DNA from: Lacrimispora amygdalina | GTDB lineage: Bacteria > Bacillota > Clostridia > Lachnospirales > Lachnospiraceae | Length of the DNA: 64,000 nucleotides | Reading direction: 5' to 3' | Assembly (NCBI RefSeq): GCF_003432035.1 | Contig: NZ_QOHO01000023.1 | Span: 56,431 to 120,430 of the forward strand | Shown: in pieces, positions 1,815 to 47,092 of the stretch | Numbering within the stretch: position 1 is the stretch's first letter | How the letters are laid out: the number at the start of each line of letters is the position of its first letter | Notes under the pieces: model-generated | Seen by the model: the letters and a program-made list of their open reading frames with translations, nothing else | The model's database searches: none | Told to the model about the DNA's origin: nothing | Position numbers and translations under genes: made by a program

Positions 1815-1831
1815 TTCATAAACGATATTTA

Positions 1832-5043: not shown

Positions 5044-5050
5044 AGAGAAA

Positions 5051-5103: not shown

Positions 5104-5124
5104 TGACTCAGACAACCCGTTGCT

Positions 5125-6108
5125 TTAATACTTCGCAGTCAGCAGAAGCTCCACTGCCATACGGTCCGAAAGCCTTCCGGTTTTTACCGCTTCTTCCGCT
5201 TCAACACAGGAATTTACATAAGAAAGAATCTGCTCTTTTGAAAAAGTTTTTGCCTGAGGCATCAGCTTACCGGCAGCAAAAGGCGGAATTTTAAGTTTTG
5301 CCGCGATTCCCCCTTTATCCATTCCCTTCCCCATCAGTTCCTTCACCTGGAGCAGCTGATTAAACTGCCTGGCTATGAGAAACATAATTCTCATAGGCGG
5401 TTCCTTTAAAGTAAGTAAATCTTCATAAAGATCAAGCGCCTTTTTTGTCTGACGGTTCACAATTGATGTAACCATGTCAAAGATCTTATTGGCTGTGCGT
5501 TCCGTACAGATGGCCGTCACATCCTCATCTGTTATCACTTCTCTTCCCAATGTGAAACTGATAAGTTTTTCCAGCTCCATGCGGATGTTTTCCATGTCAT
5601 CTCCGGTCATGCTTAAGAAAAGCTCCATGGTCTGCCCGGTCACCTTCTTCCCTTCTCTGGCAAGCAGAGTTCCCGCCCACCTGGCAAGCTGGCTCATATC
5701 CTGACGCTCCATTTCAGCAGCATATCCCAGTTCCTTTATCTTTTTAAACATTTTACTTCTTTTATCTACTTCTGATTCCACAAACACCATGCAGGTTGTA
5801 TCCGGCATCTGGGGAAGATAGGCAGCCAGTTCCTCTGCCGCCGATTTAAAAAAGCCGCTGTCTTCTACCAGAATCATTCGCTTCTCAGCAAAAAAAGGCA
5901 TGGTATCAGCAAGGCTTATCAGTTCCTTTACATCAATGGACTTTCCGTTAAACTGATTGAAATTCATGGTATCGCCCTGGGTTATGGCCGATTTCATCTG
6001 ATTTTTATAGCTGTTTTTTAAAAAGGCTTCTTCCCCAAATAAGAGGTAAACCGGCTTAAAACTATTATTTTTTATATCCTGATTCAGGGTCTGCATAACA
6101 TGGTTCAC
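5125..6108 (-). CDS. holA: DNA polymerase III subunit delta
   Basis: The clamp-loader subunit that opens the sliding clamp, 327 residues, normal for the family. It has the N-terminal KPVYLLFGEEAFLKNSYKNQ segment, the NQFNG region, the central DTTCMVFVESEVDKRSKMFK block and the C-terminal collar domain. The start is taken as GTG at 6108, overlapping the comEC stop by 4 nt. ATG at 6096 is an alternative. The comEC-holA order is common in Firmicutes. Confidence 0.93.
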   Translation of the reverse strand: MNHVMQTLNQDIKNNSFKPVYLLFGEEAFLKNSYKNQMKSAITQGDTMNFNQFNGKSIDVKELISLADTMPFFAEKRMILVEDSGFFKSAAEELAAYLPQMPDTTCMVFVESEVDKRSKMFKKIKELGYAAEMERQDMSQLARWAGTLLAREGKKVTGQTMELFLSMTGDDMENIRMELEKLISFTLGREVITDEDVTAICTERTANKIFDMVTSIVNRQTKKALDLYEDLLTLKEPPMRIMFLIARQFNQLLQVKELMGKGMDKGGIAAKLKIPPFAAGKLMPQAKTFSKEQILSYVNSCVEAEEAVKTGRLSDRMAVELLLTAKY

Positions 6109-8459
6109 TCCTTTTCCTTCCCTTCATTATACCCATGGTTCTGATTTCCGTCAACGAAAGTTGAAAAACGGATCCTGGTTCCATCCGTTTCCAGTCTGAC
6201 CGCTCCGCTTTTTCCAGTCTGAAAGACCGTAACATTCCGTTCTTTTAAACGGTCTAAAACTTCTTTATGAGGATGCCCGTAGGAATTCCCCTGTCCATAG
6301 GAAATCACAGCCCAGGCCGGGGAAACTGCGTCAAGGAACGGTTCACTGGATGAAAATCTGGAGCCGTGATGAGCGGTTTTTAAAACATTTACTTCGCCAA
6401 GAAAATGATAATCCGTTTTCCCAAGAAGCCGCTGTTCCTCCGCCTCTCCCATATCTCCGGTAAACAGCATATGACAATCACCATAATCCATTTTAAGCAC
6501 CTGTGATTCTCCATTAACATCACCCGGAACATCTTCTTTGCCGGGATAAAGGCAGGTAATGGAAAGTGTGCCTATTTTCATAAAATCTCCTCCTGTTAAA
6601 TACCTCACGCAGGTCCCCCGTTTGCTTCCCAGCTCTTTAAGTGACTGAATTGATTCATCCTCCCTCCCATGATAGGGGAGAAACAGATTCTTAATCTGAA
6701 TATCCTCACAGCTTTCCAGTAAGTATTTCACCCCGCTTAAATGATCCTGGTCCCCATGGCTGACAAATGCATAATCAATTTCGGAAATACCAAGGGATTT
6801 AAGACAGGGAGACAGTGTGTATTCTCCCAGAGACTTATTCGACGAACTGCCTCCATCAACCAGTATGGCTTCTCCCTCTGTTCTCAGTAAAATCCCATCT
6901 CCCTGCCCCACATCAAGAAACCATGCATCCAGCCCTCTTACTGGCTTGGGTAAAAAAAGCAGTATGGACAAGAGATAGAAGCCTGCTAAAAAAAGAAGCT
7001 TTCCACCATATGGAATCCTCCCTGCATTTTTATCCTTTCTCTCTTTTGGGAGATCTGCTTCCTTCTTCTCTCCATTCTCCCATTTCCCCAACATTTTAAT
7101 GAACAGCATACCAGCAGTCAAAAGTAAAGCATAAGCGGCAAGAACAAGAATATCCGGCCTTCCCAGGATAATATTATGTCCTGGTATCTGCCCGGCCGTT
7201 TTTAGCAGAACTTCATACAAAGACAGAATATAATGCCCGGTGCCAGCTGCCGCAGTTCCTAAAACAGAATTTATGGCTCCAAAGGCAATCACTCCCATAC
7301 CCGAACAGAGTACTCCTCCCATAAGAGGAATGACCAGAAGATTTAGCACCAGACCATAAGGAGGCATTTGATAAAAATGAAATGCCGTTACAGGCAACGT
7401 CATCATCTGAACAGCAAAGCAGGCAGAAATACTCCCGGCAAACAGATGATCTTTCCCCAGCCAGCCCCGGATGACCGGTGCCAGTCCTCCGATCGCAAAC
7501 ACAGCGCCAAAGGAAAGCTGGACTCCTCCCTGCATGATGAGAAACGGGGAATGAAAACTGAGAAGAAGTAAAGACAGAGAAGCTGCAGACAGCAAATCAT
7601 AGGTTCTGCCAAGACAGGCAGCATAAAATCCAACACACATCATAAACCCCGCCCGCACAACTGAGGGGCCCCCACCGGTCATAATGCCGTATAATATCAG
7701 AAGAGCTGTGCTTAAAAGACCTGCCTCCCAAAAACCTGCCCCCGCTTTTTTCATCAGCTTATAGAAAGCCAGCCCGATAAAGGACATGTGCAGACCACTG
7801 ATTGCAAGGAGGTGGGCGATACCGTTTTTCTGGTATAGATCCTTGATTTCACTGGAAATCCCCTTTCTATCTCCCAGCACGGCAGCCGCAAAAATACCTG
7901 CGTCCTCTTCTTTCGCATCCCGATAGAGAAGTTCCTTACTTCGTAACTTAAATTTCCTTAAGCGTTCCAATAGCGGGGACTTTGCAGCATCCACGATTTC
8001 CATCTCTTCTGCAAAAAGGCGGAAATCCAGTCCCAGAGACTGGTAGTAATCTTTGAAGTCAAACTCACCCGGATTTCTTGCCTGGGAAAAAAGCTGCACC
8101 TCTCCCCGCACCATAACCGTCTGCCCGATTCCCAATTGTTCCGATGAAACGCTGCCGGCCTCCTTTAAGGAAACCAGAATTTTGGAATGCTCATAAGGAA
8201 CCTCATCCCAGTTTCCTTTTGTCATCTTCCGTATCCGGTTATTCTTTAACGTCAGCAAGACAGCTCCTTCCTCTTCCTCAATGAAAGAAATCTTACCCTG
8301 AACCTGGGTATAATGGGAGGAAATCTCATAAAGCCTCTTTTCCCGTTCTCTCCATTTCTCCATTTCAGAACCTGCACGAGCCGATCCCAAGTAGAAAAAA
8401 ACAAGAGGCAAAAAGACCCATAGCGGGTTTCTGCCTCTCCTGCAAACACAAAAAATCAT
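6105..8459 (-). CDS. comEC: ComEC/Rec2 DNA uptake channel
   Basis: Membrane channel that passes single-stranded DNA into the cell, 784 residues from the first canonical start. It has an N-terminal OB-like region, the Competence domain (GIAHLLAISGLHMSFIGLAF, about residues 210-460) and a C-terminal metallo-beta-lactamase domain (WFLDVGQGDGILLRTEGEAI, FVSHGDQDHLSG, LKTAHHGSRFSS). The frame continues upstream of 8459 for 36 codons with no ATG, GTG or TTG. That extension encodes a typical ComEC first membrane helix, so the true start may be an ATA at 8567. No other competence gene is in the window. Confidence 0.92.
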   Translation of the reverse strand: MIFCVCRRGRNPLWVFLPLVFFYLGSARAGSEMEKWREREKRLYEISSHYTQVQGKISFIEEEEGAVLLTLKNNRIRKMTKGNWDEVPYEHSKILVSLKEAGSVSSEQLGIGQTVMVRGEVQLFSQARNPGEFDFKDYYQSLGLDFRLFAEEMEIVDAAKSPLLERLRKFKLRSKELLYRDAKEEDAGIFAAAVLGDRKGISSEIKDLYQKNGIAHLLAISGLHMSFIGLAFYKLMKKAGAGFWEAGLLSTALLILYGIMTGGGPSVVRAGFMMCVGFYAACLGRTYDLLSAASLSLLLLSFHSPFLIMQGGVQLSFGAVFAIGGLAPVIRGWLGKDHLFAGSISACFAVQMMTLPVTAFHFYQMPPYGLVLNLLVIPLMGGVLCSGMGVIAFGAINSVLGTAAAGTGHYILSLYEVLLKTAGQIPGHNIILGRPDILVLAAYALLLTAGMLFIKMLGKWENGEKKEADLPKERKDKNAGRIPYGGKLLFLAGFYLLSILLFLPKPVRGLDAWFLDVGQGDGILLRTEGEAILVDGGSSSNKSLGEYTLSPCLKSLGISEIDYAFVSHGDQDHLSGVKYLLESCEDIQIKNLFLPYHGREDESIQSLKELGSKRGTCVRYLTGGDFMKIGTLSITCLYPGKEDVPGDVNGESQVLKMDYGDCHMLFTGDMGEAEEQRLLGKTDYHFLGEVNVLKTAHHGSRFSSSEPFLDAVSPAWAVISYGQGNSYGHPHKEVLDRLKERNVTVFQTGKSGAVRLETDGTRIRFSTFVDGNQNHGYNEGKEKE

Positions 8460-8563
8460 CCCGGCTGCAATGAACGCCGGAAGAAAAAGCCAAGATGTCA
8501 GAGCCAGCAGTACGGCAGTCTCTCCAAGTACAAATCCCCCTGCAATCAGACATAATGGGCGTT

Positions 8564-9550
8564 TTATTGTTGTGTTCCTCCTGTTTCTTCTGTTGATTCC
8601 TCATTTTCCTTATTGTAATCCAGATTTCGCTCAAACAGCTGGTTTAAAGAAATGGAGTCCCGGAACATCACTTCCTGGGAACCATTGACTGTGATCTGCA
8701 CCTTGTTGATGGAAGAGACCGCAGCCAGAGAATTCACGATGGAATAGATGGGAATATATTCTTTTACCTCCAGTGTGTTATTGAGAAATGAGGAGTCAAA
8801 ATTGATGTAACATACATTTTCATTAACGGAAACATTGAGTAACTTGGTATCCTTAGGCAGAGTGGGATTTAATCCCGGTCTGCCGGGACCTGCAATCAGC
8901 TGTTCAATTACCAGCTTTTCCAGAGAAGTATTGATGTTATGAACCACTTCTCTCGTTTCCTTAACCAGCTTCTCTCCGCTTTCATCTGAAAAATATAAAG
9001 ACAGCTCCGTCTTTTCAAAGGAGTTGACGTTACTGATATTATCTACAAAATCCGTACTCTGCATGGGCCCAACCGGGTTTCCGGTGCTGTCCATAAGAGG
9101 CTGTTCCGCCGTATAGATTGCCACGTATGCAATCCCCTTAATCTGGGTTAATGTCCTGACAAGAGCGGCCCTGCAAAGAATCTCCCTGGTACTGTTCATC
9201 ATGGCATAATTATTATCAAAATACAGATATAACACCGTATCTTCCAGTTTATACCGTTCAAATCCCACCTTGTCCGGGACCGCTGCCTGCCGGTCTAAAT
9301 CCTTTGGAACGTTACGAAGCTGTTCCATCAGATTTTTAATCTTCCAGTCTGTTTCCTCTTCTGATTCCTCTGCCGGCTTCTGGGGCATGGTATATGGCTG
9401 AGGCTCCATTTTTGTCATGGCTGAATTCAGATAGTAGATCTGATAAAGCTCCCCATCCTCTTTGCTTTCTTCGGGCGCTCTTCCTGAACAGCCAGATAAA
9501 CAGCATATCACAGACAGCAGGAAGATCAGTATACCGATTCGTCGCTTCAT
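8564..9550 (-). CDS. GerMN-domain lipoprotein
   Basis: A 328-residue exported lipoprotein with signal peptide and lipobox LSGC (Cys about residue 20). Two GerMN-like domains are visible, roughly residues 85-195 and 200-305 (EQLIAGPGRPGLNPTLPKDT; NVSVNENVCYINFDSSFLNN). GerMN proteins take part in spore germination or envelope assembly. It lies directly after a sensor kinase gene and before comEC, with AGGAGG in its tail serving comEC translation. Confidence 0.82.
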   Translation of the reverse strand: MKRRIGILIFLLSVICCLSGCSGRAPEESKEDGELYQIYYLNSAMTKMEPQPYTMPQKPAEESEEETDWKIKNLMEQLRNVPKDLDRQAAVPDKVGFERYKLEDTVLYLYFDNNYAMMNSTREILCRAALVRTLTQIKGIAYVAIYTAEQPLMDSTGNPVGPMQSTDFVDNISNVNSFEKTELSLYFSDESGEKLVKETREVVHNINTSLEKLVIEQLIAGPGRPGLNPTLPKDTKLLNVSVNENVCYINFDSSFLNNTLEVKEYIPIYSIVNSLAAVSSINKVQITVNGSQEVMFRDSISLNQLFERNLDYNKENEESTEETGGTQQ

Positions 9551-9567
9551 CCCTGTCCCTCCTGTTC

Positions 9568-11010
9568 CTAAGAAATATAGGTAAGAGGAATACGTACGGT
9601 AAAAGTGGTACCCTCTCCCTCTTTGCTCTGAAGCTTGATGGCTCCCTGATGCATCAGCACAATTTTTTTCGTAATGGACAAACCAAGACCGGTTCCTCCC
9701 GTTTCTCTGGATCTTGCCTTATCCACCCGGTAAAAACGGTCAAAAACACGTTCCTGGAATTCTTCGGAGATTCCGATTCCTGAATCAGCAACCTTTACAT
9801 AAAAGAACTTATGATCTGCATCCAGTGTCACCCGGACCCAGCCTCCTTCCACGTTGTATTTGATGGCATTCTCCACAAGATTGCTCAGCGCCAGAGACAG
9901 CTTCATCTCATCCACATCTGCGGTGACTTCCCGCATGCTCTCAAAAGTCAGCTCAATATTTCTCTTTCCTGCAATGGGGCGGAGCCGCTTTAAAATCAGT
10001 TCCAGCAGCCCGTTAATTTTAACCTGGGCCACGTTTAAGTTTGCTCCTGCCGTCTTATCCATTCGTACCAGAGCCAGGAGATCGTCGATAATTTTATTCT
10101 CTCTTTCAATCTCTTCTGAGATATCACTTAAAAATTCCCGGTACAGCTCCACAGGAGCATCCTCCATGCCAATCAGAGAATCTGCCAGAACGCGAATCGA
10201 GGTAATGGGAGTTTTTAATTCATGAGATACGTTGGAAACAAACTCTTCCCTTGACTTGTCCACCGCTTTTAACTTCTTTAAGGTGGTATTAATGGAATCA
10301 GAGATCTGCCTGGTTTCCTTATAGATACGGGAACTGATATCTTCATCTAAATTCCCCTCTGCAGCCCGGTTTAACAGCCGCTGCAGCTCACGAAACGGCT
10401 TCATCAGAAGCTTTACAATAAGAACTGCCGCAATTGCCAGTATGGAAACAATTAAAAGCTGCAAAAATGCGCTTTTATCCGATACTGCAACAATCCTGTT
10501 TAAAAGATCCTCAGAAGATGCCGTCACAATCATGACACCGTCTATCTCCTTGTCCTGGCTGTTGGAATAGATGGGAATTGTGAGAGAAAAATATCTTTTT
10601 TCCTGATTATATTTGCTGCTGTTTTCGCCGTTAAAGCATCGGATCACTTCCTCCGACACATTGGTCTTTCCTGCTGATAAGGAAAACGTATCGCCGATAA
10701 TGCGGAAGCTCTTGTTGATAATTACAATTCTTCCGTTAAACATATCCGCTTTCACAGTCATCTCATTGTCCAGCAGGGGATCCTTGGGATCCATGGTTAA
10801 ATATCCAATCCTGGTCATCTTGTTGCTTAATATCCAGCACTGGTTCTGGATCTCCTGCATTCTGGAATCGATGAGATTTTGCCGGAATGCTCCAAGCAGG
10901 ACAGAACTTCCTATAAAGACAGGAATACTTCCTATAAACAAAAAGACGAGAATCAGGGTGACCTGCAGGCTTATGGTGGGCTTTCGGCGGAATTGTTTAT
11001 CCTGAAACAT
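9568..11010 (-). CDS. Membrane sensor histidine kinase
   Basis: A 480-residue kinase. Transmembrane segments lie near residues 15-38 and 182-202, flanking an extracytoplasmic sensor of about 140 residues. A HAMP domain follows, then HisKA (FVSNVSHELKTPITSI, phospho-acceptor His) and HATPase_c (NLVENAIKYN, DSGIGISEEFQERVFDRFYR, GGTGLGLSI). The ATG at 11010 has GGAGGGG seven bases upstream and is preferred over a GTG at 11016. The architecture is WalK/PhoR-like. No response regulator gene adjoins it, which is unusual. Confidence 0.9.
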   Translation of the reverse strand: MFQDKQFRRKPTISLQVTLILVFLFIGSIPVFIGSSVLLGAFRQNLIDSRMQEIQNQCWILSNKMTRIGYLTMDPKDPLLDNEMTVKADMFNGRIVIINKSFRIIGDTFSLSAGKTNVSEEVIRCFNGENSSKYNQEKRYFSLTIPIYSNSQDKEIDGVMIVTASSEDLLNRIVAVSDKSAFLQLLIVSILAIAAVLIVKLLMKPFRELQRLLNRAAEGNLDEDISSRIYKETRQISDSINTTLKKLKAVDKSREEFVSNVSHELKTPITSIRVLADSLIGMEDAPVELYREFLSDISEEIERENKIIDDLLALVRMDKTAGANLNVAQVKINGLLELILKRLRPIAGKRNIELTFESMREVTADVDEMKLSLALSNLVENAIKYNVEGGWVRVTLDADHKFFYVKVADSGIGISEEFQERVFDRFYRVDKARSRETGGTGLGLSITKKIVLMHQGAIKLQSKEGEGTTFTVRIPLTYIS

Positions 11011-11037
11011 GGTCACACCCCTCCAATCTTCGACTTA

Positions 11038-11904
11038 TCATAGCTGTATTTCTTTGGTACAGGCAACCGCCAGCGCCCCCGGCCCGATATGGCAGGCCAC
11101 GCTGAGAGAAAGGTGATCCACATAGATCTCTCCTGTTTCCGGAAATAGTTCTTCAAGCTCCCGTTTGAATTCCAGGGCAGCTTCCAGACTGTCTGAGTGT
11201 ACAACTGCCATATGAGTTTTCTCTCCTTTTGGATCTTTAAAACGTTCATCCATATCTTTTTTTATAGCAGCAACCATCATGGCTTTTGCCTGTTTCATGG
11301 TTCTTGCTTTTGCAAAAGCATCAAGCTTTTCTCCCTGTATGGTAAGTACCGGCTTAATCCGCAGAAAACTTCCAAGCAGTGCGGCAGCAGGGGTGATTCT
11401 TCCGCCCTTTTTTAAATATTCCAGGGTATCTAAGGTGATATAAATGGTAGAGTCCATCTTTGTCTCCTCTAACTTCTCCTTAATCGCCTGGGGGCTTATT
11501 CCCTGATCTGCCATCTCCTTCGCATCAAGTACAGACTGTCTCTGGGTCACGGAGATTCTCTGATTATTAACAACATACACCTTCCCTTCAAAATCCTCTG
11601 CCAGCATAATGGCTGTCTGGCAGGAACTGCTTAATCCGCTGGACATGGGTATGTGCACAATGGCTTCATATTCCTTTAGCAGGTCATTCCATAAATCCAT
11701 TACATCACCGGGAGATGGCTGTGAGGTGGAAATATCCGCGCCGCTTGCCAGCTTTTCATAAAACTCCTTCTGGCTTAAGCTGATATCCTCATAATACATC
11801 TCTCCATCCATCATAAATGGCATGGGAATGACATAAATTCCAGCTTCCTTCCCCTGCTTCTGGGTAATTCCGCTGTTGCTGTCTGTAACAATCGCTACTT
11901 TCAT
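11038..11904 (-). CDS. DegV family fatty-acid-binding protein
   Basis: A 288-residue DegV/FakB-type protein. These bind a fatty acid and present it to the FakA kinase. Family motifs are IVTDSNSGI at the N-terminus, ISTSQPSPGD, HIPMSSGLSSSCQTA and the C-terminal HIGPGALAVAC. A good AAAGGAG site precedes ATG at 11904. It lies between an ABC exporter and the sensor kinase on the same strand, and no fakA is in the window. Confidence 0.9.
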   Translation of the reverse strand: MKVAIVTDSNSGITQKQGKEAGIYVIPMPFMMDGEMYYEDISLSQKEFYEKLASGADISTSQPSPGDVMDLWNDLLKEYEAIVHIPMSSGLSSSCQTAIMLAEDFEGKVYVVNNQRISVTQRQSVLDAKEMADQGISPQAIKEKLEETKMDSTIYITLDTLEYLKKGGRITPAAALLGSFLRIKPVLTIQGEKLDAFAKARTMKQAKAMMVAAIKKDMDERFKDPKGEKTHMAVVHSDSLEAALEFKRELEELFPETGEIYVDHLSLSVACHIGPGALAVACTKEIQL

Positions 11905-11928
11905 TCCGGCTCTCCTTTATTTCTCAAA

Positions 11929-13698
11929 TTAAGTATTCTGCTCTGCTTCACTCACAGATGTATAAAGCTGGTAATACATGCCTTTCTTTAAAAGCAGTTC
12001 TTCATGACTTCCTTCTTCCACAATACTGTTGTCAGACAGAACTAAAATCCGGTCCGCGTTCTGTATGGTAGTAAGCCGGTGTGCGATCGTCACAGTTGTC
12101 CTTCCTTTGGAAAGCCGCTCTAAAGACTGGGAAACCAGCTGCTCGCTTTCATTATCAAGTGCAGAGGTCGCTTCATCGAGAATCAGAACCGGCGGATTTT
12201 TTAAGAACACTCTGGCAATACTGATCCGCTGCTTCTGACCGCCGGAAAGCTTCACTCCCCGCTCTCCTACATATGTATGGTATCCATCTTTTAATCCCAT
12301 GATGAATTCATGGGCTCCTGCCATCTTAGCCGCTGTAACCACCTCTTCCATGGAAGCACCCGGACGGCCGTATTCTATGTTCTCATATACAGTTCCTGAG
12401 AATAAATAAACATCCTGCTGCACGACTCCTACCGTGCTTCTTAAGCTCTTAAGCGTTACTTCCCTGATATCCTGTCCGTCAATCAAAATTCTACCCTCTG
12501 TAGGGTCATAAAACCGTGGTACCAGGCTGCAAAGAGTTGTTTTTCCGCCTCCGGAAGGTCCTACCAGAGCCACCTTTTCTCCCTGTCTGATTTTTAAGTT
12601 AATATGAGACAGGACCGGATTACGGTCATCCGGATATTCAAAAGAGACGTCTTCAAAGGAGATCTCCCCTTTGATTTCCGTAAGAGGTCTTGCGCCTTCT
12701 TCATCAAAAATATCTACATTGGCATCCATCAGCTCCATGAAACGGTCAATCCCTGTCATACCTCTCTGAAACTGCTCCGCAAACTCAATAATTCTTCGTA
12801 TGGTAGCCAGTAACGTGCTGACATAAAGAGTGTATGCCACAAGATCTCCCGGTTCAATGAGACCTTTTATCATAAAAATACCGCCTGCAACGATCACCAC
12901 TACATACATCAGACCGTCAAACATCCGGATGGTATTCTGGAAAGCCGCCATATATTTATAAGTTTTTCGTTTAATCTGTAAGAATTCCTGATTGTCACGA
13001 TTGAATTTTTCAATCTCGATCTTCTCATTGGCAAAAGCTCTCACCACCCTGTTTCCAAGCAGGCTGTCCTCAATCCTGGCATTCAGTTCACCAATATGGT
13101 TTCTCTGGTGTTTGAACGCTTTCCTTACCTGAATATTAAAATAGGTGCAGGACACTGCCATGACTGGAATCAGCAGGAAAATGATAAGAGTCAGCGGAAG
13201 ATTGATCCCCGAGAGGATGACAAAAGAGATCACCGTCTTTAAAAATGCAATAAAAAATTCTTCGGGACAGTGATGGGCAAACTCCGTCACGTCAAATAAA
13301 TCGCTGGTAATCCGTGACATAATCTGCCCGATCTTGGTATTATTAAAATAATTATCGGAAAGCTTCTGAAGATGGCTGAACGCATCCTCTCTCATATCCG
13401 TCTCTATGGCCGCTCCCATCACATGACCGGTATATGCCATATAAAAGCTTGCCATGCCGTCAATGATCCTGAGTCCGAAATAAAGTGCACCGATGCTTAA
13501 AATGGTACGGATAGTCAGTGCCGAAATATCCCGCAGCCCCTGATTGGTAATAAACCGAAGAATCAGGGGCAGCACCATCTCACAAATGGTGGTTAAGGAC
13601 GCACAGAACAAGTCCATCACCATAATCTTTTTATATTTTTTATAATATGGCGCAAACCGCCTCAGCAATATGCCTGTTCTCATCTCTTTTTGATTCAT
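11929..13698 (-). CDS. ABC transporter, fused permease and ATPase (exporter type)
   Basis: A 589-residue half-transporter. Six membrane helices span residues 1-310. The ATPase has Walker A GPSGGGKTT, signature LSGGQKQR and Walker B VLILDEATSALD followed by the switch His (IAHRLTT). It is of the MsbA/multidrug-lipid exporter type and probably works as a homodimer, since only one half-transporter gene is present. Substrate cannot be told from sequence. Confidence 0.92.
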   Translation of the reverse strand: MNQKEMRTGILLRRFAPYYKKYKKIMVMDLFCASLTTICEMVLPLILRFITNQGLRDISALTIRTILSIGALYFGLRIIDGMASFYMAYTGHVMGAAIETDMREDAFSHLQKLSDNYFNNTKIGQIMSRITSDLFDVTEFAHHCPEEFFIAFLKTVISFVILSGINLPLTLIIFLLIPVMAVSCTYFNIQVRKAFKHQRNHIGELNARIEDSLLGNRVVRAFANEKIEIEKFNRDNQEFLQIKRKTYKYMAAFQNTIRMFDGLMYVVVIVAGGIFMIKGLIEPGDLVAYTLYVSTLLATIRRIIEFAEQFQRGMTGIDRFMELMDANVDIFDEEGARPLTEIKGEISFEDVSFEYPDDRNPVLSHINLKIRQGEKVALVGPSGGGKTTLCSLVPRFYDPTEGRILIDGQDIREVTLKSLRSTVGVVQQDVYLFSGTVYENIEYGRPGASMEEVVTAAKMAGAHEFIMGLKDGYHTYVGERGVKLSGGQKQRISIARVFLKNPPVLILDEATSALDNESEQLVSQSLERLSKGRTTVTIAHRLTTIQNADRILVLSDNSIVEEGSHEELLLKKGMYYQLYTSVSEAEQNT

Positions 13699-39886: not shown

Positions 39887-39958
39887 GCATCTGTAGCTCA
39901 GTGGATAGAGCAGTGGCCTCCGGAGCCGCGTGCGTAGGTTCGATTCCTATCAGATGCA
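39887..39958 (+). tRNA. tRNA-Arg (anticodon CCG)
   Basis: A full cloverleaf can be folded: acceptor GCATCTG / CAGATGC, D stem GCTC/GAGC, anticodon stem GTGGC/GCCGC with loop CTCCGGA (anticodon CCG, reads CGG), T arm with GTTCGATTC-like loop, discriminator A. CCA is not encoded. It lies directly beside the 3' end of the RiPP operon. I found no repeated copy of its 3' end that would mark an attachment site. Confidence 0.95.
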
Positions 39959-40076
39959 CTATTTTTTTGCCCGGAAATAATGCTCTGAAACCCTGATTTT
40001 ACGGGGTTTATTTTACAGTATATTTTGTCCTGTCTTTATTATATTCCTTAATTTTACGTTTAAGTTCTTTTTTACT

Positions 40077-40115
40077 TAAAAAAACAGAGCATAGTCAATC
40101 AATTTGACCATGCTC
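40077..40115 (-). terminator. Terminator of the RiPP operon
   Basis: On the minus strand GAGCATGGTCAA-ATTGA-TTGACTATGCTC (one mismatch) is followed by TGTTTTTTT, about 45 nt after the methyltransferase stop. The rest of 39959-40158 holds nothing I can identify. Confidence 0.85.
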
Positions 40116-40158
40116 ACATTTTATCAAAATAAGCGTATTGTTCGATCAGTCAGGTTTT

Positions 40159-41046
40159 CTACTTTCGCCCTGTTATTAAAACACTTCCAGACCCTGTCCA
40201 CTCAAAAATGGAGTTATCCTCTAAATTATTGAGTAGAAAGTTCTTTTTTTCTTCCAGAAGATATAAATACTCCTCCGCTTCTTCCTTTTTCAGAAACTGA
40301 TTTCTATCATCTAATTTAAGAAATCTATTCAATTTATGCCATTCACATTCATAAGAATCAATAACATATTTTTCTCTGTCTTTTTTATTTAAACTTGCAT
40401 TACTAAAAGAAAATAAGTTTCCTATTGGATACAGAGATATATCTTTTAATCCGTTTTCAGCAAAAAAATGGGGTATTTCAGCAGTTGTCATTCCATTGGT
40501 ATAGCCTTTAACAGGATCTATCTTTTCATACATATTCCATACGTTCCTATATAACTCTCTGTATCGTACTAACCATTTACAATCTGGTGGATAATGTCCG
40601 CTTTCCATTACTGCCGGAATAAATGACATGGAGGTTATTGAAGAAATTATCCCTTCTGGTTTCAATACGCGCTTCATTTCTTTCAGTACAGCCTTTGGAT
40701 CATTCACACTGGTAAAAAATGTATGACTTACAACGTGGTCAAAACTACTGTCATCAAACGGGATTTTTTTTGCATCTGCTATAAAAAAATTGATTCCACC
40801 GCCGAGGCGCTTTGCCGCCTCAATAAAACCTTTATCCCGGTCAAATGCAGTTATCTGAAGGGATGGAACCCCTTTCTTCAGGTATCTTCCCAGGTAACCA
40901 GTACCACAACCTGCTTCTAAAATTTTATCACCTTCCTTCAGGTGCATGTGGCTGATTACCAGTTCTCTTAATTCATCTGTTAGCATGTATTTTCTGGTAT
41001 ATTCCAAAAATTCTGGCAGTTGGAAATATTTTGACCATTCCTTCAT
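40159..41046 (-). CDS. SAM-dependent methyltransferase of the RiPP operon
   Basis: A 295-residue class I methyltransferase. SAM-binding motif I is ILEAGCGTGYLGRYL (about residues 43-57), then ITAFDRDKGFIEAA, FIADAKKIPFDDSSFDHV and LKEMKRVLKPEG. The C-terminal half is helical and Lys/Glu-rich. Its ATG overlaps the flavoprotein stop (ATGA), with AGGGAG upstream. As the last gene of the operon it is inferred to methylate the modified peptide, for example its N-terminus or C-terminus. The target cannot be told from sequence. Confidence 0.88.
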   Translation of the reverse strand: MKEWSKYFQLPEFLEYTRKYMLTDELRELVISHMHLKEGDKILEAGCGTGYLGRYLKKGVPSLQITAFDRDKGFIEAAKRLGGGINFFIADAKKIPFDDSSFDHVVSHTFFTSVNDPKAVLKEMKRVLKPEGIISSITSMSFIPAVMESGHYPPDCKWLVRYRELYRNVWNMYEKIDPVKGYTNGMTTAEIPHFFAENGLKDISLYPIGNLFSFSNASLNKKDREKYVIDSYECEWHKLNRFLKLDDRNQFLKKEEAEEYLYLLEEKKNFLLNNLEDNSIFEWTGSGSVLITGRK

Positions 41047-41810
41047 ATATTTTTCTCCCTAATTACTTCCTGTAACGAATTATATTTAAAGTACCCCTGC
41101 TCTTCCCAAATCCGTTTCTCCCCAAAACTCAAACCAGGATATTGCTGTTCTATTTCCAAAAGTTTATGAAATCTTAAATTCTGTATGTGAAAATATTCTT
41201 CCTGTTCCAGATTATATTCCAGTTTTCCCCCCATACCTTCCCAAAATTTCACTGCTCCTTCTTTTAATACAGAATTTAATAGTTCATCATCCTTTAATAA
41301 TAGCGTACCGAAGTGAATAAAAACATTCTGGCTAATAACAATGGAAGCTCCCATTAATCCAACCATTTTATTTAAATAGGAAGTTACCGCATCACCATTA
41401 TTACTATCTGCTGTTGAGAAGACACCTGCTGTTTTGCCAATCAAAGGCATTGTATGAAGCCAGCCAGCCAGTCGGTCAACTAATATTTTCATATCTCCGG
41501 AAACAGCTGCCGCATACACAGGAGAAGCAAATATTATTCCATCACTCTTTCTTATTTTATTTTTCAGCATCGCCATCCCATCCTTTTGATCCAGCGGACA
41601 AAATCCCTTTCGAAAGCAAGTTCCGCATGATCTGCATGGCATGATATTCCAATCCGATGGATATAAAATTTCAGATTGAATTAAGGAACCCTGGCTGTAT
41701 GCGCTTTTTTTTAACTCGTCAAGAAAAGTCACACATAGCTTACCAGTATTAGAATTTTTTTCTGCGCTGGACCCTACAAGTACAATCACACTTTTTTTAT
41801 TTTTATCCAT
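41043..41810 (-). CDS. Iron-sulfur flavoprotein / NAD(P)H-dependent FMN reductase family
   Basis: A 255-residue flavodoxin-fold protein. The FMN phosphate loop is GSSAEKNSNTGKL (about residues 13-25). A compact cysteine motif C-x2-C-x2-C-x5-C (PCRSCGTCFRKGFCPL, about 58-73) matches the iron-sulfur flavoprotein family, followed by SPVYAAAVSGDMKILVDRL. The ATG at 41810 has GAGGTA upstream. It overlaps the LanM-like gene by 8 nt. In this setting it may reduce dehydroalanine/dehydrobutyrine to D-amino acids or oxidise an azoline. Both are inferences. Confidence 0.85.
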   Translation of the reverse strand: MDKNKKSVIVLVGSSAEKNSNTGKLCVTFLDELKKSAYSQGSLIQSEILYPSDWNIMPCRSCGTCFRKGFCPLDQKDGMAMLKNKIRKSDGIIFASPVYAAAVSGDMKILVDRLAGWLHTMPLIGKTAGVFSTADSNNGDAVTSYLNKMVGLMGASIVISQNVFIHFGTLLLKDDELLNSVLKEGAVKFWEGMGGKLEYNLEQEEYFHIQNLRFHKLLEIEQQYPGLSFGEKRIWEEQGYFKYNSLQEVIREKNI

Positions 41811-43959
41811 TTCTACCATTACCTCGAATAAGCAGCTTAGGAATTTTTTCCGGATATTGTCTTCTTAACAAAGTGTACAGCCAGCCTCCTTCTCCATGAA
41901 AAAAAGAGGGAAATAAAACTCCATTAATTCCTTCCATAAGACCATTCTCCAACTCCGCTTCCGTCCACAGCCATATATTATTATTTTCACTCTCATTAAA
42001 AAAATCATCTATATCAGTGTGATATAAATTGCTTTTTATTAATTCTCTCATTTGAATAAGCTCCGGAACCTTTATAAAAGCACTTACGATTTCTATCATC
42101 TTCCATAAACCTTCAAGTCCTTCTGAAAGACTTGCTTTATAAGAAGAAAGATTCGTATCCCGAACATAATGAAGAGTACGTTCTGCGACATGATGCAGCA
42201 TATCCAATGCTTCTTCATCATTGGTAATAAAACTCCAGCCTGCCAAAAACGGCAGCAATCCCGGAATCCCCTCCATAATGTTCCATGGTAATCCAGTAAG
42301 ATAATACTTCCCATTTTTTTTGCATACTACAATACCTTCAACATAATCTGATTTTTTCAGTTTATTACTCCACAAATGCAGTCTAAAACGTATGAATCGT
42401 TCTATCACTTTCTTATTTTCCAGACTTCTGGCTAACAAATATACTTTATCCGATTGTATACCATGGCACAATACGGTCCTGATTCTCTTGCATTGCTTCT
42501 CCCGGTCTTCCCGGCACAGATATCTGATTTTATTTTCAATAAGTTCCGTTATCGTATGTTTTTCATCTTCTCCACCTTTCCTCCATAGAGAGGATAACTC
42601 CATATCTAATCTGGGAATATATCCCCTTTTAAGAGACTCCTTCTCTCTGCTGATGAGCTCATTTATTGTATCCTCCCACTTGTCTTGACTTACAACCCGA
42701 TACATTTTATTAACATAGCCAATTCTGTCTTCAAAAATTTCTGCTGAACAAATACTGTCTTTCTGACACAACCACCGTATAATATGATAATAAGTTGCTG
42801 TATTTCTTAAAAGAAATCTTGCACTGCAAAAAGTAAACTTTACAGAAATACCATATTGCTCCAGAGTATCGTAAGCTTTCCTGAATCCTTCCTCTACATC
42901 TTCTGCATATGATAAGGCAGTAACACATCCGTCCTCTCCATTGGGAAGATTATGTGCATTCTCCATAGTAGAGGTAAGAGCATCACTTCCAGGGCATATT
43001 TCTCTTGAACCAGTAATAAAAGGCAGCATATTTGTTCGCAGAACCGAGTCAAAACAATATATATTTTTTTTAACATTCCTGATATCACTTAACAAATTAT
43101 TATCGCATACCCGTACCCCCGTCTCCAAATCAATTAAAACAGGGCAATTTTTATGTGCTATCATATTCTCCGCATGCAAATCACTTCCCTGCAAAACATA
43201 GGCTAAACCCAGAAGAAACCCGCATCTGTAATAGAAGAGATTAAAATCACTTTTCTGTTCAACTGGTTCGGCTGTTACATATTCTTCAAAGCCAAAATCA
43301 CCGCAATCAAGAATCCATGGCGTATAGAAAGGCTCTATCTTCGCCTTTGCAGCTGTTTCCTGCAGCAGCTGCTGCCACTTTTGATCCAATGAAAGAGAAC
43401 GAGGTTTATAAACAATCTGATCTCCACTTTCAAACAATAATATCAGTATGCAGCTTCCATTATGAATATCAGAGTCTCCTCCGGCTATTTTTATAATTTT
43501 TCCGGTATCCTTTCCTAATAGCTTCTGTAACTTCCATTGATACATCAGCAGACGCTTTGTGATAATTACGATAAGATTTGTGAAGTCAGCTGTCCATCCT
43601 GCAACCATAGCCCGGAATCTCTCATGATTTTCCAGTAAACTCTTCCACAATTCAGCATAATTGCAAAATGTGTACTCATCCTCTCCCAGATATTCCCTAT
43701 ATAAGGATTGACTTATCAGATCCAACTGCCTGAAAAAAAAATACCGTGTATCTGTTCCGGCCTTCTTTTTAAAAACAGACTTAACAGCTATCTTTTCTGC
43801 TTCAAATTTATTCTCAATTTCCTGTTTTACATATTGAAACACAGGATCCATGAACAAAAATTTATACGGCAGTTCTTGCTCTTCTTCATTTCCAAAAAAG
43901 AAACTGTCTACTCTGTGCGGCTTCTCCATAAAATTAATTAATTTTTGCTCCGCATTCAT
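41803..43959 (-). CDS. LanM-type peptide dehydratase with degenerate LanC domain
   Basis: A 718-residue class II lanthipeptide synthetase homologue. The dehydratase domain is intact: GGDSDIHNG (about 160-168), VYKPRSL (183-189), GSDLHAENMIAH (258-269), PVLIDLETG (273-281) and the elimination motif RFLLRNTATYY (381-391). Normal LanM proteins are about 1000 residues with a C-terminal zinc LanC cyclase. Here only about 190 residues remain: an N-terminal LanC-like piece (WNIMEGIPGLLPFLAG) and its last motif (FFHGEGGWLYTLLR...KIPKLLI). The zinc Cys/Cys-His motifs are gone. It should phosphorylate and eliminate Ser/Thr but not form lanthionine. Start at 43959 after GAGGGAA. Confidence 0.88.
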   Translation of the reverse strand: MNAEQKLINFMEKPHRVDSFFFGNEEEQELPYKFLFMDPVFQYVKQEIENKFEAEKIAVKSVFKKKAGTDTRYFFFRQLDLISQSLYREYLGEDEYTFCNYAELWKSLLENHERFRAMVAGWTADFTNLIVIITKRLLMYQWKLQKLLGKDTGKIIKIAGGDSDIHNGSCILILLFESGDQIVYKPRSLSLDQKWQQLLQETAAKAKIEPFYTPWILDCGDFGFEEYVTAEPVEQKSDFNLFYYRCGFLLGLAYVLQGSDLHAENMIAHKNCPVLIDLETGVRVCDNNLLSDIRNVKKNIYCFDSVLRTNMLPFITGSREICPGSDALTSTMENAHNLPNGEDGCVTALSYAEDVEEGFRKAYDTLEQYGISVKFTFCSARFLLRNTATYYHIIRWLCQKDSICSAEIFEDRIGYVNKMYRVVSQDKWEDTINELISREKESLKRGYIPRLDMELSSLWRKGGEDEKHTITELIENKIRYLCREDREKQCKRIRTVLCHGIQSDKVYLLARSLENKKVIERFIRFRLHLWSNKLKKSDYVEGIVVCKKNGKYYLTGLPWNIMEGIPGLLPFLAGWSFITNDEEALDMLHHVAERTLHYVRDTNLSSYKASLSEGLEGLWKMIEIVSAFIKVPELIQMRELIKSNLYHTDIDDFFNESENNNIWLWTEAELENGLMEGINGVLFPSFFHGEGGWLYTLLRRQYPEKIPKLLIRGNGRNG

Positions 43960-43968
43960 CACATTCCC

Positions 43969-45849
43969 TCATTTATTGTAATTTCCATATATCAGATGTA
44001 ATTTTTTAGTCATTACATCACTATTAAGAAACTTATTGTATAAATTCCCATAAAAAATACGAAGCTCAGGATACAAACATGTTGTCTGCTCACATTCTTC
44101 ACATTGAAATTGCCTGCACTTTGGATACAGTTTTAAAAACACTTCATCCCGCACACCAAAATCCTCTTGAACCATCTGAACAATTTTATTATCATACAGA
44201 GAATTTAGTATTTCTTCTATCTCTTTCATTCCGTATCCTTCCACTAATCCGCATAAAGTCTTGTGCAGTACAGATAAATATTGGTATTCATCGGATTTGT
44301 CAGCATTTCTGCTCATGCATTTTTGAACCTCTTTTATAGCTTCTTTATCATTTTTCAGATAATACTGACATACCGCACTTAAAAAACCTATGGTATCATT
44401 TCCGCCATGGATTGAATTGGAAAATGGGGTCTGACATAAGACTCCTATGGTATTCTCCAAAACTGAGTTGCGCTGCAATCGTGTGGTCAGCAGCAGTTTT
44501 TTTACTTTATTCTCATTCATATTTTCAACATTACATAGAAAAGAGACTGATTCCATTTTTTGTGCATTTGTTTTTAAGACAGTGTAATTGTAAGGAATGA
44601 GTTCACTCATTCCCTCTGCAAATATAAAAACACTTGGGAAACCCAGATATGATACATCCATAACATATATTTGAGATCCTTCATTTACAATCAGACCGGT
44701 TAATCTGTCAAGCCACTCTCTGTTTGATTGTTTATCGTTACATTCCAATGACCTGTATTCATAATCTGGTTTTTCCCTAAATAAAGAAACTGGATAGTAT
44801 CCCGTTCCTGTTTTCATTGTATTAAGCATATTTTGATGATTGCACACATTTTTTTGATCAAAAGAAATCTGGTTTGTCATAGAGAACTCATCCAGCTTCT
44901 TCCCCTGTAATGCCTCTGTAAATACTCTTTCCAATGCTATTTTTCTGTCAGGATGGGCTCCAAACTTTACTCCAAAAGTTTTTTTGCTGCCATTTATTAC
45001 AATTCCGCATACAACAGGGAAATTTTTTCCTAATGAGCAATCTTTAACAATTACTTTGTAATTCTCATTTTTTTCAATGGCATCAATCATGTTTAATACA
45101 TTCTGGTATTTTTTAAGTTCATCGTTCGGTATATCAGGCGGGGTAATGCATTCCATCATTATTTTACGCTGAACATATCTCTCTAATATTTCTGAATACC
45201 CCTGAACAATTGCCTCTTCTATTGTATTACCAGCTGCCATCCCATTGCTTACGTTCACGCTTTTAACCATTTCCAAAGGGATCCATTCATATTGTCCGGA
45301 CTGTACATGATAAAAAGGGACTGAAAAAACTTCGTTCTTTTCCCAAAGAGGAAAAAGCTTTCTCAATTGGGCTAATACCAGCTGTCTCATATTAAATTCA
45401 TTGGTATCTACTTCCATACTTTCTTCATAATAACTTATAATTCGATTTAATAAGGAGTTCTCATCTTTCAGAAAAACGTCTAAAGAAATTTTTTTACATA
45501 AAGAATGCTTTGGTATTTCTTCTGAAATATATGGAGATTGTATATCATTTTCATGAATCTGATACATAAAAATCTGATTCTGAATTCGTTCCATTAATTC
45601 AGCGTAACCACTTGCCAGACAATAATCTTTTGTTGTTCCTTTACCATTAGCAGCAATTACATCTTTAAGTTTTCCCTTAACGTATACTCTGGCCGAATAA
45701 CAATCAGGTAAATCATTTTCCCAAAAATATGTTTCTGTTTCAATATTTACCTGGTTTAGACATTTTTTTACTTGGATGACAGTATCTTTTGGAAGTGCAT
45801 CCTTTCCTTTTTCATTCCAATATATCATCTTATTTAGATTTTTTTCCAT
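43969..45849 (-). CDS. YcaO-domain protein
   Basis: A 626-residue YcaO ATP-dependent backbone-modifying enzyme. ATP-site motifs are KGTTKDYCLASGYAELMER (about 70-88), NGMAAGNTIEEAIVQGYSEI then LERYVQR (202-228) and HPDRKIALERVFTEALQG (299-316). The arrangement is that of E. coli YcaO rather than of cyclodehydratases fused to an E1-like partner. A helical C-terminal region ends in a four-Cys motif C-x4-C-x2-C-x4-C (578-591). Start at 45849 after GAGGGTG; the ATG at 45891 has no ribosome site. It may form azolines, thioamides or amidines on the peptide. No TfuA or E1-like gene is present. Confidence 0.88.
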   Translation of the reverse strand: MEKNLNKMIYWNEKGKDALPKDTVIQVKKCLNQVNIETETYFWENDLPDCYSARVYVKGKLKDVIAANGKGTTKDYCLASGYAELMERIQNQIFMYQIHENDIQSPYISEEIPKHSLCKKISLDVFLKDENSLLNRIISYYEESMEVDTNEFNMRQLVLAQLRKLFPLWEKNEVFSVPFYHVQSGQYEWIPLEMVKSVNVSNGMAAGNTIEEAIVQGYSEILERYVQRKIMMECITPPDIPNDELKKYQNVLNMIDAIEKNENYKVIVKDCSLGKNFPVVCGIVINGSKKTFGVKFGAHPDRKIALERVFTEALQGKKLDEFSMTNQISFDQKNVCNHQNMLNTMKTGTGYYPVSLFREKPDYEYRSLECNDKQSNREWLDRLTGLIVNEGSQIYVMDVSYLGFPSVFIFAEGMSELIPYNYTVLKTNAQKMESVSFLCNVENMNENKVKKLLLTTRLQRNSVLENTIGVLCQTPFSNSIHGGNDTIGFLSAVCQYYLKNDKEAIKEVQKCMSRNADKSDEYQYLSVLHKTLCGLVEGYGMKEIEEILNSLYDNKIVQMVQEDFGVRDEVFLKLYPKCRQFQCEECEQTTCLYPELRIFYGNLYNKFLNSDVMTKKLHLIYGNYNK

Positions 45850-45913
45850 GGCACCCTCACATTCAGCTGCATTATCAGCGTATATATACATAATTCGAAG
45901 TATTACTTAATCT

Positions 45914-45927
45914 GAGCAACCAATAAA
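45914..45927. repeat. Inverted repeat arm, left of the precursor gene
   Basis: GAGCAACCAATAAA, exactly complementary to 46284-46297. The pair encloses the precursor gene. Confidence 0.7.
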
Positions 45928-45977
45928 CATATCAAGCAATTAGTTCCATTAAATTAATTACCGGTGGTAACCTCGTT

Positions 45978-46265
45978 TTAAATAGCCGCTGCGGAAGCAG
46001 CTGCTGCTGCTGCACCAGTATAAGTTGAAACGGCAGAGACAATTTCACTTGTACTTGCTCCCAATAAAACATTGTTGAGTTCTTTTTCGCTGATGTTGTT
46101 TACAGCACTGTTGAACTCTTTCATTGTTTTTACAAATTCTTCGGAAGAATCTGTCACACCCTCATTACGTGCAATTTTGTAAGCCTCTTCGGGTTTTTTA
46201 ACATTTACCAATTTATTTCTTAATTCTCCATTTTCCAGCTTTTTAATAAACTCTCTTGTTGTCAT
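45978..46265 (-). CDS. RiPP precursor peptide with Nif11-like leader
   Basis: A 95-residue peptide. Residues 1-69 fit the Nif11-like leader: EFIKKLENGELRNKL, KKPEEAYKIARNEG, EEFVKTMKEF, ISEKELNNVLLGA, ending in a Leu-Leu-Gly-Ala cleavage-like site. The predicted core (about residues 71-95) has eight Ser/Thr, no Cys and a run of six Ala, and ends AAAI. The whole protein lacks Cys, so lanthionine rings cannot form within it. AAAGGAG lies 6 nt before the ATG. It is followed by YcaO and LanM-like genes, so the core is their likely substrate. This is inference from context plus leader similarity. Confidence 0.82.
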   Translation of the reverse strand: MTTREFIKKLENGELRNKLVNVKKPEEAYKIARNEGVTDSSEEFVKTMKEFNSAVNNISEKELNNVLLGASTSEIVSAVSTYTGAAAAAASAAAI

Positions 46266-46283
46266 ATAGTCTCCTTTCTAATA

Positions 46284-46297
46284 TTTATTGGTTGCTC
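46284..46297. repeat. Inverted repeat arm, right of the precursor gene
   Basis: TTTATTGGTTGCTC, exact complement of 45914-45927. It overlaps the last codons of the XRE gene. In the operon transcript the two arms could pair around the precursor cistron. Confidence 0.7.
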
Positions 46298-46500
46298 TTC
46301 ATTGTTGGTGTATAAGCAATGATATCTTTCACATCGCATTGAAAAATCTGACAAAAGCGATCAATAGAACTTAACGTAAAATTATGATTGTTTTTCAGTC
46401 TAGAAATCTCAGCAGGATTTAAATCGTACTCCTCTTCCAGCATATAAGAACTTATTTTTCTCTCGTTCATTAATTTCCAAAACGGGTCTGTTGATATCAT
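46285..46500 (-). CDS. Small XRE-type regulator of the RiPP operon
   Basis: A 71-residue protein that is almost only an HTH: MNERKISSYMLEEEYDLNPA, EISRLKNNHNFTLSSIDRF, CQIFQCDVKDIIAY. GAGGTGG precedes ATG at 46500. It is the first gene of the operon, with a TACATATATGTA palindrome next to its promoter, so autoregulation is likely. The precursor follows 19 nt later. Confidence 0.8.
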   Translation of the reverse strand: MISTDPFWKLMNERKISSYMLEEEYDLNPAEISRLKNNHNFTLSSIDRFCQIFQCDVKDIIAYTPTMKSNQ

Positions 46501-46520
46501 TGTTTTTCCACCTCGCTTAC

Positions 46521-46549
46521 ATTATAAAATCACTTTTATATTTATATAA
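46521..46549 (-). promoter_or_regulatory. Promoter of the RiPP operon
   Basis: On the minus strand TTATAT, 17-nt spacer and a perfect TATAAT, about 20 nt before the XRE start codon. Confidence 0.6.
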
Positions 46550-46551
46550 GC

Positions 46552-46563
46552 TACATATATGTA
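46552..46563. promoter_or_regulatory. Candidate operator TACATATATGTA
   Basis: A perfect 12-nt palindrome immediately upstream of the -35. A related ACATATAT motif lies next to the promoter of the neighbouring membrane-protein gene (about 47181-47190). Confidence 0.45.
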
Positions 46564-46608
46564 AGAGATTCGCATTTTTTTTATTTTTCTTTTCTCTATT
46601 CAGGCAAA

Positions 46609-46653
46609 TAAAAAGCCCCATATAGGACTTTATATAAATGTCCTATATGGGGC
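46609..46653 (-). terminator. Terminator of the 129-residue membrane protein gene
   Basis: A perfect 14-bp stem GCCCCATATAGGAC / GTCCTATATGGGGC is followed on the minus strand by TTTTTATTT. It isolates the membrane-protein gene from the RiPP operon. Confidence 0.85.
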
Positions 46654-46702
46654 AGCGTACCGAAATGAATATCCCTGTCTTCTTTATTGATTAAAAATAA
46701 TT

Positions 46703-47092
46703 TTAACGATTATTATTTCTCATATGCAATATCCCTCCCTCAATAACAAACAGTCCGTTCCTGCTTCTCATTACAGAGTAATACTCCTTTTCATTTCCAG
46801 ATAAACCATATGCAATCTGAACCGTTTTCCAGTTGCTCCTGTATAAATTACCTACTTTAACAACCTCGGGAATACGTTCTGTTCTGCTGACCTCAACCAT
46901 ATTTTTATTATGTATCATATCGATATAATTATATCTGGTTACGGTTATGGACAAAATGAGTCCCATGAGTAAAAAACCGGACAGTCCGGTGAGCATCAGC
47001 CAGTCCCGTCCAAGAAAGAATAAAACAAAAAGCAGAAGCATAACCACTAAATACAAAACTCCATAAACTGTAATCCCAACAATATTTGTCAT
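46703..47092 (-). CDS. Small membrane protein next to the RiPP operon
   Basis: A 129-residue protein with two membrane helices (about residues 8-28 and 32-52) and a basic soluble C-terminal domain (NYIDMIHNKNMVEVSRTERI ... GGILHMRNNNR). I do not recognise a family. It is AT-rich like the RiPP genes, has its own promoter and terminator, and shares the ACATATAT motif with the RiPP promoter. Immunity or regulation are possible roles, as inference only. Confidence 0.65.
   Translation of the reverse strand: MTNIVGITVYGVLYLVVMLLLFVLFFLGRDWLMLTGLSGFLLMGLILSITVTRYNYIDMIHNKNMVEVSRTERIPEVVKVGNLYRSNWKTVQIAYGLSGNEKEYYSVMRSRNGLFVIEGGILHMRNNNR

Follow-up and report, generated by a model that had tools for sequence, protein, structure and literature searches.

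What kind of peptide is made by a gene set that joins a YcaO enzyme, a LanM-like dehydratase, a flavin mononucleotide (FMN) reductase and a methyltransferase to one small precursor? The question is raised by 64,000 nucleotides of Lacrimispora amygdalina DNA (contig NZ_QOHO01000023.1, positions 56,431 to 120,430), here called the window, whose own coordinates are used below. A six-gene operon runs on its minus strand from 46500 to 40159 in the order XRE regulator, precursor, YcaO, LanM-like protein, FMN reductase and methyltransferase. The product is predicted to be a linear, ring-free peptide with dehydrated or reduced Ser and Thr residues, thioamides at one or more backbone positions and a methyl ester at the C terminus, without lanthionine; we hold this reading, which is drawn from sequence comparison, to be evenly poised between right and wrong. 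It is carried by the recurring gene order, the Cys-free core that is conserved above its leader and the intact kinase and lyase residues of the LanM, joined by lost zinc-ligand motifs, a predicted YcaO fold of the E. coli type and relationships to LahSB and LanJB. An earlier note on this DNA had proposed a linear, dehydrated, possibly reduced, YcaO-modified and methylated peptide free of lanthionine. That proposal is supported by the absence of Cys from the core and of zinc motifs from all 23 LanM rows compared, and by the LanJB-like flavoprotein and the LahSB-like methyltransferase.

The precursor gene (45978..46265, minus strand) encodes 95 amino acids and is identified by a comparison of 31 sequences (the window and P0121-P0150) and by the composition of its core. 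Residues 1-69 form the leader and residues 70-95 the core of 26 residues, ASTSEIVSAVSTYTGAAAAAASAAAI, with 5 Ser, 3 Thr, 11 Ala and no Cys; its monoisotopic mass is 2311.154 Da. Cores free of Cys are found in 28 of the 31 sequences. Mean column entropy is 1.43 bits over residues 1-68 versus 0.60 bits over residues 69-95, a difference whose weight, taken alone, is limited by the low complexity of the Ala tail and by the relatedness of the sequences. Within residues 69-95, E74, S77, A78, S80, T81, A87, A89 and A92 are invariant and the runs of Ser and Thr are conserved, and the C-terminal residue is Ile or Val in 27 sequences and Ala in 4, being Ile in the window. The genome itself holds one match to the precursor. 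The earlier note had named a Nif11-leader precursor; the precursor is indeed present, but it scores 20.7 bits with the Nif11 model against a Pfam cut-off of 23.8 (17.0 against 32.3 with TIGR03798) and the leader is therefore called Nif11-like only. P0124 alone carries a precomputed Nif11 annotation among the 30 closest matches.

In the LahA peptides, leaders are conserved and cores are diverse (PMC10885120). Judged from the alignment, conservation of core over leader in the window family is the reverse of that pattern. A core so nearly unchanged suggests that the peptide has a single fixed target and is not part of a diversifying arsenal, which in a Nif11-like system with a drifting leader would mean one defined function and not a combinatorial library. 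Because the reversed pattern points to a single defined function, a search for the target is sensible.

We infer that the leader is removed between G69 and A70, because this cut sets V66, L63 and I58 at positions -4, -7 and -12, where the rule for the C39 protease LahT demands hydrophobic residues (PMC10885120). There is no C39 gene in the operon, and three C39 domains are encoded on contigs other than that of the window. One of them belongs to a distinct class II lanthipeptide cluster of ordinary appearance (L129, contig C137, 8402-13689), with a short Cys-bearing open reading frame (ORF), a LanM of 915 amino acids that has zinc motifs and a C39 transporter of 683 amino acids. This transporter could serve the operon in trans.

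The LanM-type dehydratase (41803..43962, minus strand) has 719 amino acids when read from its GTG start, with an ATG at 43959. It contains a DUF4135 domain (PF13575, 1e-57) and reaches 239 bits with the LanM model TIGR03897, for which the cut-off is 304. Nine residues of the dehydration site (kinase and lyase), the elimination pair included, are invariant in all 23 rows at identities of 32-83%, and the zinc-ligand motifs occur in none of these rows versus 10 and 11 of 11 controls. The window thus has the DUF4135 domain and the kinase and lyase residues of a class II lanthipeptide system and lacks both the zinc ligands and a Cys in the core. Most of the LanM cyclase is lost, as are the zinc motifs, and the description 'without cyclase' in the earlier note was nearly right, except that a remnant stays. 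The exact ends of the deletion are not fixed, because an HHalign alignment of the clade with 11 canonical LanMs extends only to clade residue 647. The predicted structure is of moderate confidence (predicted local distance difference test 79.7, low around 286-323 and 647-662), and its root mean square deviation is high, 8.1 to LicM2 and 9.5 to CylM. All 23 rows also share C379 (in the numbering of the 719-residue protein), which precedes the lyase Arg by three residues. If the reading is true, this would be a natural LanM reduced to a dehydratase, useful for placing dehydroalanine (Dha), dehydrobutyrine (Dhb) or D-residues without ring closure.

For the YcaO gene (43969..45891, minus strand) the probable start is the ATG at 45849, preceded by GAGGG; the ATG at 45891 has a poorer ribosome site. 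The nearest studied relative of the protein is the YcaO of E. coli, reported in 2026 as a thioamide synthase that acts on uL16 independently of TfuA (PMC13063428). A YcaO fold with a C-terminal domain resembling tetratricopeptide repeats is predicted for the whole chain, as in the E. coli type, and the family models give 272.8 bits for NF040716 and 45.9 bits for SagD (cut-off 219.25). TfuA has no match in the genome, in a search in which the M. acetivorans positive control was found, and neither a SagB-type dehydrogenase (PF00881) nor an E1/ThiF-type partner has a Pfam match among the operon proteins. The PxPxP motif is needed for azoline formation, and it is found at none of the 8 YcaO chain ends compared. 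The isoelectric point of the window YcaO, 5.47, is not decisive for the grouping. The earlier note had left the chemistry of the YcaO open, and its YcaO-modified peptide is retained here with a thioamide-forming enzyme as nearest studied relative. Formation of thioamides by the window YcaO is nevertheless the least certain step of the proposal, and we would give it about an even chance. The E. coli enzyme acts on a folded ribosomal protein and is encoded outside clusters for ribosomally synthesized and post-translationally modified peptides (RiPPs), whereas the window gene follows a peptide precursor (PMC13063428). If the reading is true, E. coli-type thioamide activity, so far described on a ribosomal protein, would also reach a peptide natural product and would do so without TfuA.

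The FMN reductase (41043..41819, minus strand) belongs to the FMN_red family (PF03358, 6.8e-20). LanJB reductases are FMN_red proteins of class II clusters that turn Dha and Dhb into D-residues (PMC7268733, PMC11519912). The window has an FMN_red protein clustered with a LanM, as in the bicereucin-type class II lanthipeptides, where D-Ala and D-2-aminobutyrate (D-Abu) are formed. Bicereucin has a LanM with a working cyclase. Three of 29 records of plasmid relatives were viewed; all three are in lanthipeptide clusters, with at most two genes between the FMN reductase gene and the LanM, and no YcaO is listed for them in a gene table that is incomplete. The motif CxxCxxC-x5-C is common to all 6 FMN reductases compared from the clusters, and one of the 3 plasmid relatives has all four Cys. 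The flavoprotein is LanJB-like and is predicted to reduce dehydroamino acids. The family assignment holds for what had been called an Fe-S flavoprotein; the Fe-S part has this motif as its sole basis.

The last gene (40159..41046, minus strand) encodes an S-adenosylmethionine (SAM) methyltransferase homologous to LahSB (PDB 6uak; 255 bits, E 6.5e-75) with 42% identity (122/292 residues). LahSB esterifies the C-terminal carboxylates of Met, Ile and Val (PMC11285071). By homology, a LahSB-type methyltransferase as in the lah-type clusters is present, and C-terminal carboxyl O-methylation is predicted.

In the proposed pathway, the order of which is inferred, the leader would bring the precursor to the enzymes. 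The LanM would phosphorylate Ser and Thr and eliminate the phosphate to give Dha and Dhb, part of which the FMN reductase would hydrogenate to D-Ala and D-Abu. The YcaO would activate backbone amides with ATP and install sulfide without TfuA, probably in the Ala-rich half of the core. The methyltransferase would then esterify the C-terminal Ile, and a C39 protease encoded elsewhere would cut off the leader after G69. The combination of thioamide, dehydration and D-residues may be a new natural product class. A bolder and tentative proposal, which we consider rather doubtful, is that the locus founds a RiPP class in which a TfuA-independent E. coli-type YcaO, a LanM stripped of its cyclase and a LanJB reductase make a ring-free, single-target, thioamidated methyl ester with D-residues.

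Several observations weigh against the thioamide-bearing linear peptide. The NF040716 score of the YcaO is far under the cut-off of 700, and a common fold is no proof of common chemistry. E. coli YcaO requires folded uL16 and a GluC digest of uL16 was left unmodified (PMC13063428); carrying this activity over to a RiPP substrate is therefore a leap. The Ala- and Gly-rich tail might serve the methyltransferase rather than the YcaO. The Nif11 score lies below the Pfam cut-off, Cys is found in 3 of the 31 cores, and the leader ends with LLG before the Ala of the core, thus having Leu at -2 where 25 of 31 sequences have Gly. CcaM, the studied LanM that is partnered with a YcaO, requires its zinc-less cyclase domain for dehydration (PMC10676384), and most of the equivalent domain is gone here. 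The FMN_red family includes other redox roles, and no recognisable transporter, protease or immunity gene was found in the operon.

Pairing a YcaO with a LanM is not new: both the dehydrazoles and the lah cluster are earlier cases. Dehydrazoles (carnazolamide; CcaM, CcaB and CcaC) are a described YcaO and LanM class (PMC10676384), and the window resembles them in having a YcaO, a DUF4135 dehydratase without zinc ligands and a product predicted to be linear and ring-free. It is conceivable, if unlikely, that the YcaO makes oxazolines or methyloxazolines on Ser and Thr while the LanM dehydrates the adjoining residues. Such a pathway would suit a core with 8 Ser and Thr and conserved runs of these residues. 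In the dehydrazoles, CcaM modifies a Ser only where an azole follows it (PMC10676384). However, the azol(in)es of carnazolamide are made by a YcaO and a dehydrogenase on a Cys-rich core behind a nitrile-hydratase leader, unlike in the window, where the YcaO is of the E. coli type by its model scores, PxPxP is lacking and PF00881 and E1/ThiF-type partners have no match in the operon. CcaM keeps a full cyclase-like domain, and DUF4135 with a full class III-like cyclase (LanMbC) is reported for all LanMs of the dehydrazole networks (PMC10676384); the window LanM has only a remnant. A related cluster in genome G179 (L094), in which no LanM was found, has cores with just 3 to 6 Ser and Thr. A reduced lah-type cluster with the chemistry of the lah products is somewhat less improbable, and is compatible with the thioamidated linear peptide. 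The lah cluster of Lachnospiraceae bacterium C6A11 has a YcaO, LanMs (LahM1 and LahM2), Nif11 leaders, LahSB and LahT (PMC10676384, PMC11285071, PMC10373908, PMC6363468), and the window shares with it YcaO and LanM in one cluster and the LahSB-type methyltransferase, next to a leader that is Nif11-like; an expanded relative, L035, looks intermediate. On the other hand, the precursors of lah are diverse and number up to nine, and lah encodes a peptidase-containing transporter (PCAT) of its own, whereas the window has a single precursor whose Cys-free core is frozen, the operon lacks a transporter gene and C39 domains are encoded only on other contigs. The window LanM belongs to a short clade that stands apart in the protein search, with LahSB as the one lah enzyme compared by sequence.

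Two further explanations concern single enzymes. The FMN reductase might perform another redox step and leave dehydroamino acids in the product, a one-step change that is compatible with the rest and that we judge quite unlikely. The breadth of the FMN_red family speaks for it, as does the four-Cys motif, present in every cluster member compared and complete in one of three plasmid relatives, but the plasmid relatives viewed are in class II lanthipeptide clusters, where the family is named LanJB (PMC7268733). It is more improbable still that the LanM-like protein phosphorylates without eliminating, or is a dead remnant in a decaying cluster. The large loss of cyclase, the dependence of CcaM on its cyclase for dehydration (PMC10676384) and a LanM frame split in the assembly of locus L034 would fit decay, but the catalytic residues, with the elimination pair, have remained invariant in 23 of 23 rows across identities down to 32%, and no enzyme frame is broken in the window, in L032 or in L033.

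The thioamidated linear peptide also stands apart from other known systems. Thioamitides have a YcaO-TfuA pair and a C-terminal ring derived from Cys. The window resembles the thioviridamide type in its Ala-rich core, dehydration and predicted thioamides, but it has no Cys in the core and no TfuA in the genome, and hence no YcaO-TfuA pair. Nor does it have the SagD-type YcaO with an E1/ThiF-type partner of linear azol(in)e systems, as the SagD score of 45.9 against 219.25 indicates. Other enzyme sets with YcaO and LanM have been described (PMC10352776, PMC10783134). The claim that the enzyme set matches nothing described is not supported, since lah (YcaO, LanM, Nif11 and LahSB) and the dehydrazoles (YcaO and LanM) are in print. 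The further claim that no characterised compound is known from this exact combination agrees with our result: neither a product nor a description of the exact set was found in the literature searched, most subscription papers, Huo 2020 among them, lying outside it.

The gene set recurs. A scan of named genomes with the LanM gave 58 loci with LanM-like matches, three of which (L032, L033 and L034) have all six genes in the same order, which is beyond chance; L032 is the nearest relative. In L034 the break in the LanM frame coincides with an ambiguous base, and a protein-database relative of 712 amino acids (P0014) is intact. The same gene families are found in a larger cluster, L035, with at least 4 precursors, two YcaOs, a LanM of 900 amino acids, two FMN reductases and the apparent end of another LanM. 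One of its YcaOs is fused to a LahSB-like methyltransferase in an ORF of 929 amino acids (3614-6403), and similar fusions of 920 amino acids are found in P0202 and P0232, which appears to tie the methyltransferase and the YcaO together. Among 22 short LanMs from the protein search, 13 are apparently co-located with a precursor match and 10 with a YcaO match too, as judged from equal size of the longest contig, which is a proxy and not proof.

In the family-wide LanM search, 30 of 397 genomes had a match. Most of these matches were partial and covered the dehydratase core of a longer ORF, and the own genome alone matched over the full length. Extended to the class, a LanM profile search gave 2 of 391: besides the own genome there was a single ORF of 1086 amino acids. 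YcaO at E <= 1e-40 was found in 3 of the 397 family genomes. When the C6A11 lah cluster was sought through its methyltransferase, 2 of 397 genomes were found, the own genome and G179 (44%), and the lah cluster itself did not turn up in the collections searched. Two scans of viral contigs for the LanM gave no relative. Some neighbouring sets were seen on the way. Just upstream of the cluster in L033 (5432-6777) there is a radical SAM gene with a small ORF ending in GACGACGACGACGG repeats, a pair not noticed at other loci. L094 in G179 (1552-12836) is a related cluster without visible LanM; it has a C39-type transporter, a membrane protein, a SPASM radical SAM protein, two E. coli-type YcaOs, a LahSB-like methyltransferase, DUF7005 and five Nif11-like precursors with double-Gly sites and Ala/Gly-rich, Cys-free cores. 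In L128 (G062, 8923-13658) a YcaO (30% identical) stands beside a protein of 472 amino acids that looks ThiF/E1-like by eye, with two metalloprotease-looking membrane proteins and an ORF of 69 amino acids nearby; by eye, this is another RiPP-like set.

The operon is confirmed as a genuine unit, and what the earlier note had seen of it, namely six named genes in one AT-rich minus-strand operon with tight or overlapping genes and a terminator, is all present. Its first gene encodes an XRE/Cro-type helix-turn-helix regulator of 71 amino acids (46285..46500, minus strand; PF13443 HTH_26, 3.6e-14), which is also upstream of the precursor in L032, L033 and L034. Matches above the Pfam cut-offs are HTH_26, YcaO, DUF4135, FMN_red and Methyltransf_11. 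With the YcaO start taken at the ATG at 45849, the intergenic spacing is 19, 128, 6, -17 and -4 nucleotides. GC content per kb is 0.33-0.37 across 40-48 kb versus 0.39-0.48 in the remaining 1-kb steps of the window. Promoter and terminator scans were uninformative (32 promoters versus 31.1 and 4 terminators versus 3.3 in shuffles), and terminators were therefore judged by the z-scores of their folds. The intrinsic terminator of the operon (40087..40115, minus strand), a stem of 12 pairs followed by a T run downstream of the last gene, has a z-score of -5.95 over 66 nucleotides, and none of 200 shuffles was equally stable. A hairpin with a T tail (46615..46653, minus strand) ends the upstream neighbour; its region (46600-46690, 91 nucleotides) has a z-score of -4.73, and again 0 of 200 shuffles folds as well. 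Because this hairpin divides it from the operon and because it persists in sister genomes without the cluster, the ORF of 129 amino acids at 46703-47092 is a neighbour and not a member, and the interval given earlier, up to 47092, overshoots. A defence system was considered and rejected, as PADLOC gave only a mad2 methyltransferase-domain match of 81 bits.

The cluster occupies a variable insert that begins right behind the 3' end of a tRNA-Arg(CCG) gene (39887..39959, plus strand), the sole match in an Rfam scan of the window. In the cluster-free sister genome G787 (L111), a clean empty site, the tRNA and the 129-amino-acid ORF are about 290 bp apart with nothing of the cluster between them, and homology to the window stops at 39962, right behind the tRNA, and restarts near 46723, at the end of the ORF. 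Of 11 flank regions taken from the genus (L111-L121), one has the cluster (L117, genome G788), and 2 of 25 genus genomes, the own genome included, have the precursor. In L113, L114, L116 and L121 the ORF and the tRNA are separated by 1 to 7 kb of unrelated-looking sequence in which no match to the cluster proteins was found. L112 has the ORF and a 30-nucleotide piece of the tRNA region, L119 and L120 give no match to the ORF, and L115 and L118 end too early to be informative. No exact repeat of 10 to 24 nucleotides was found at the tRNA end as an attachment site and there is no integrase among the genes of the insert, and self-mobility of the insert is therefore unsupported. The stretch from the tRNA to the ORF (39887-46722) is a hotspot that can be empty, hold the cluster or hold 1 to 7 kb of other DNA, and a 62-nucleotide piece of it (40011-40072) recurs in L114, L116 and L120.

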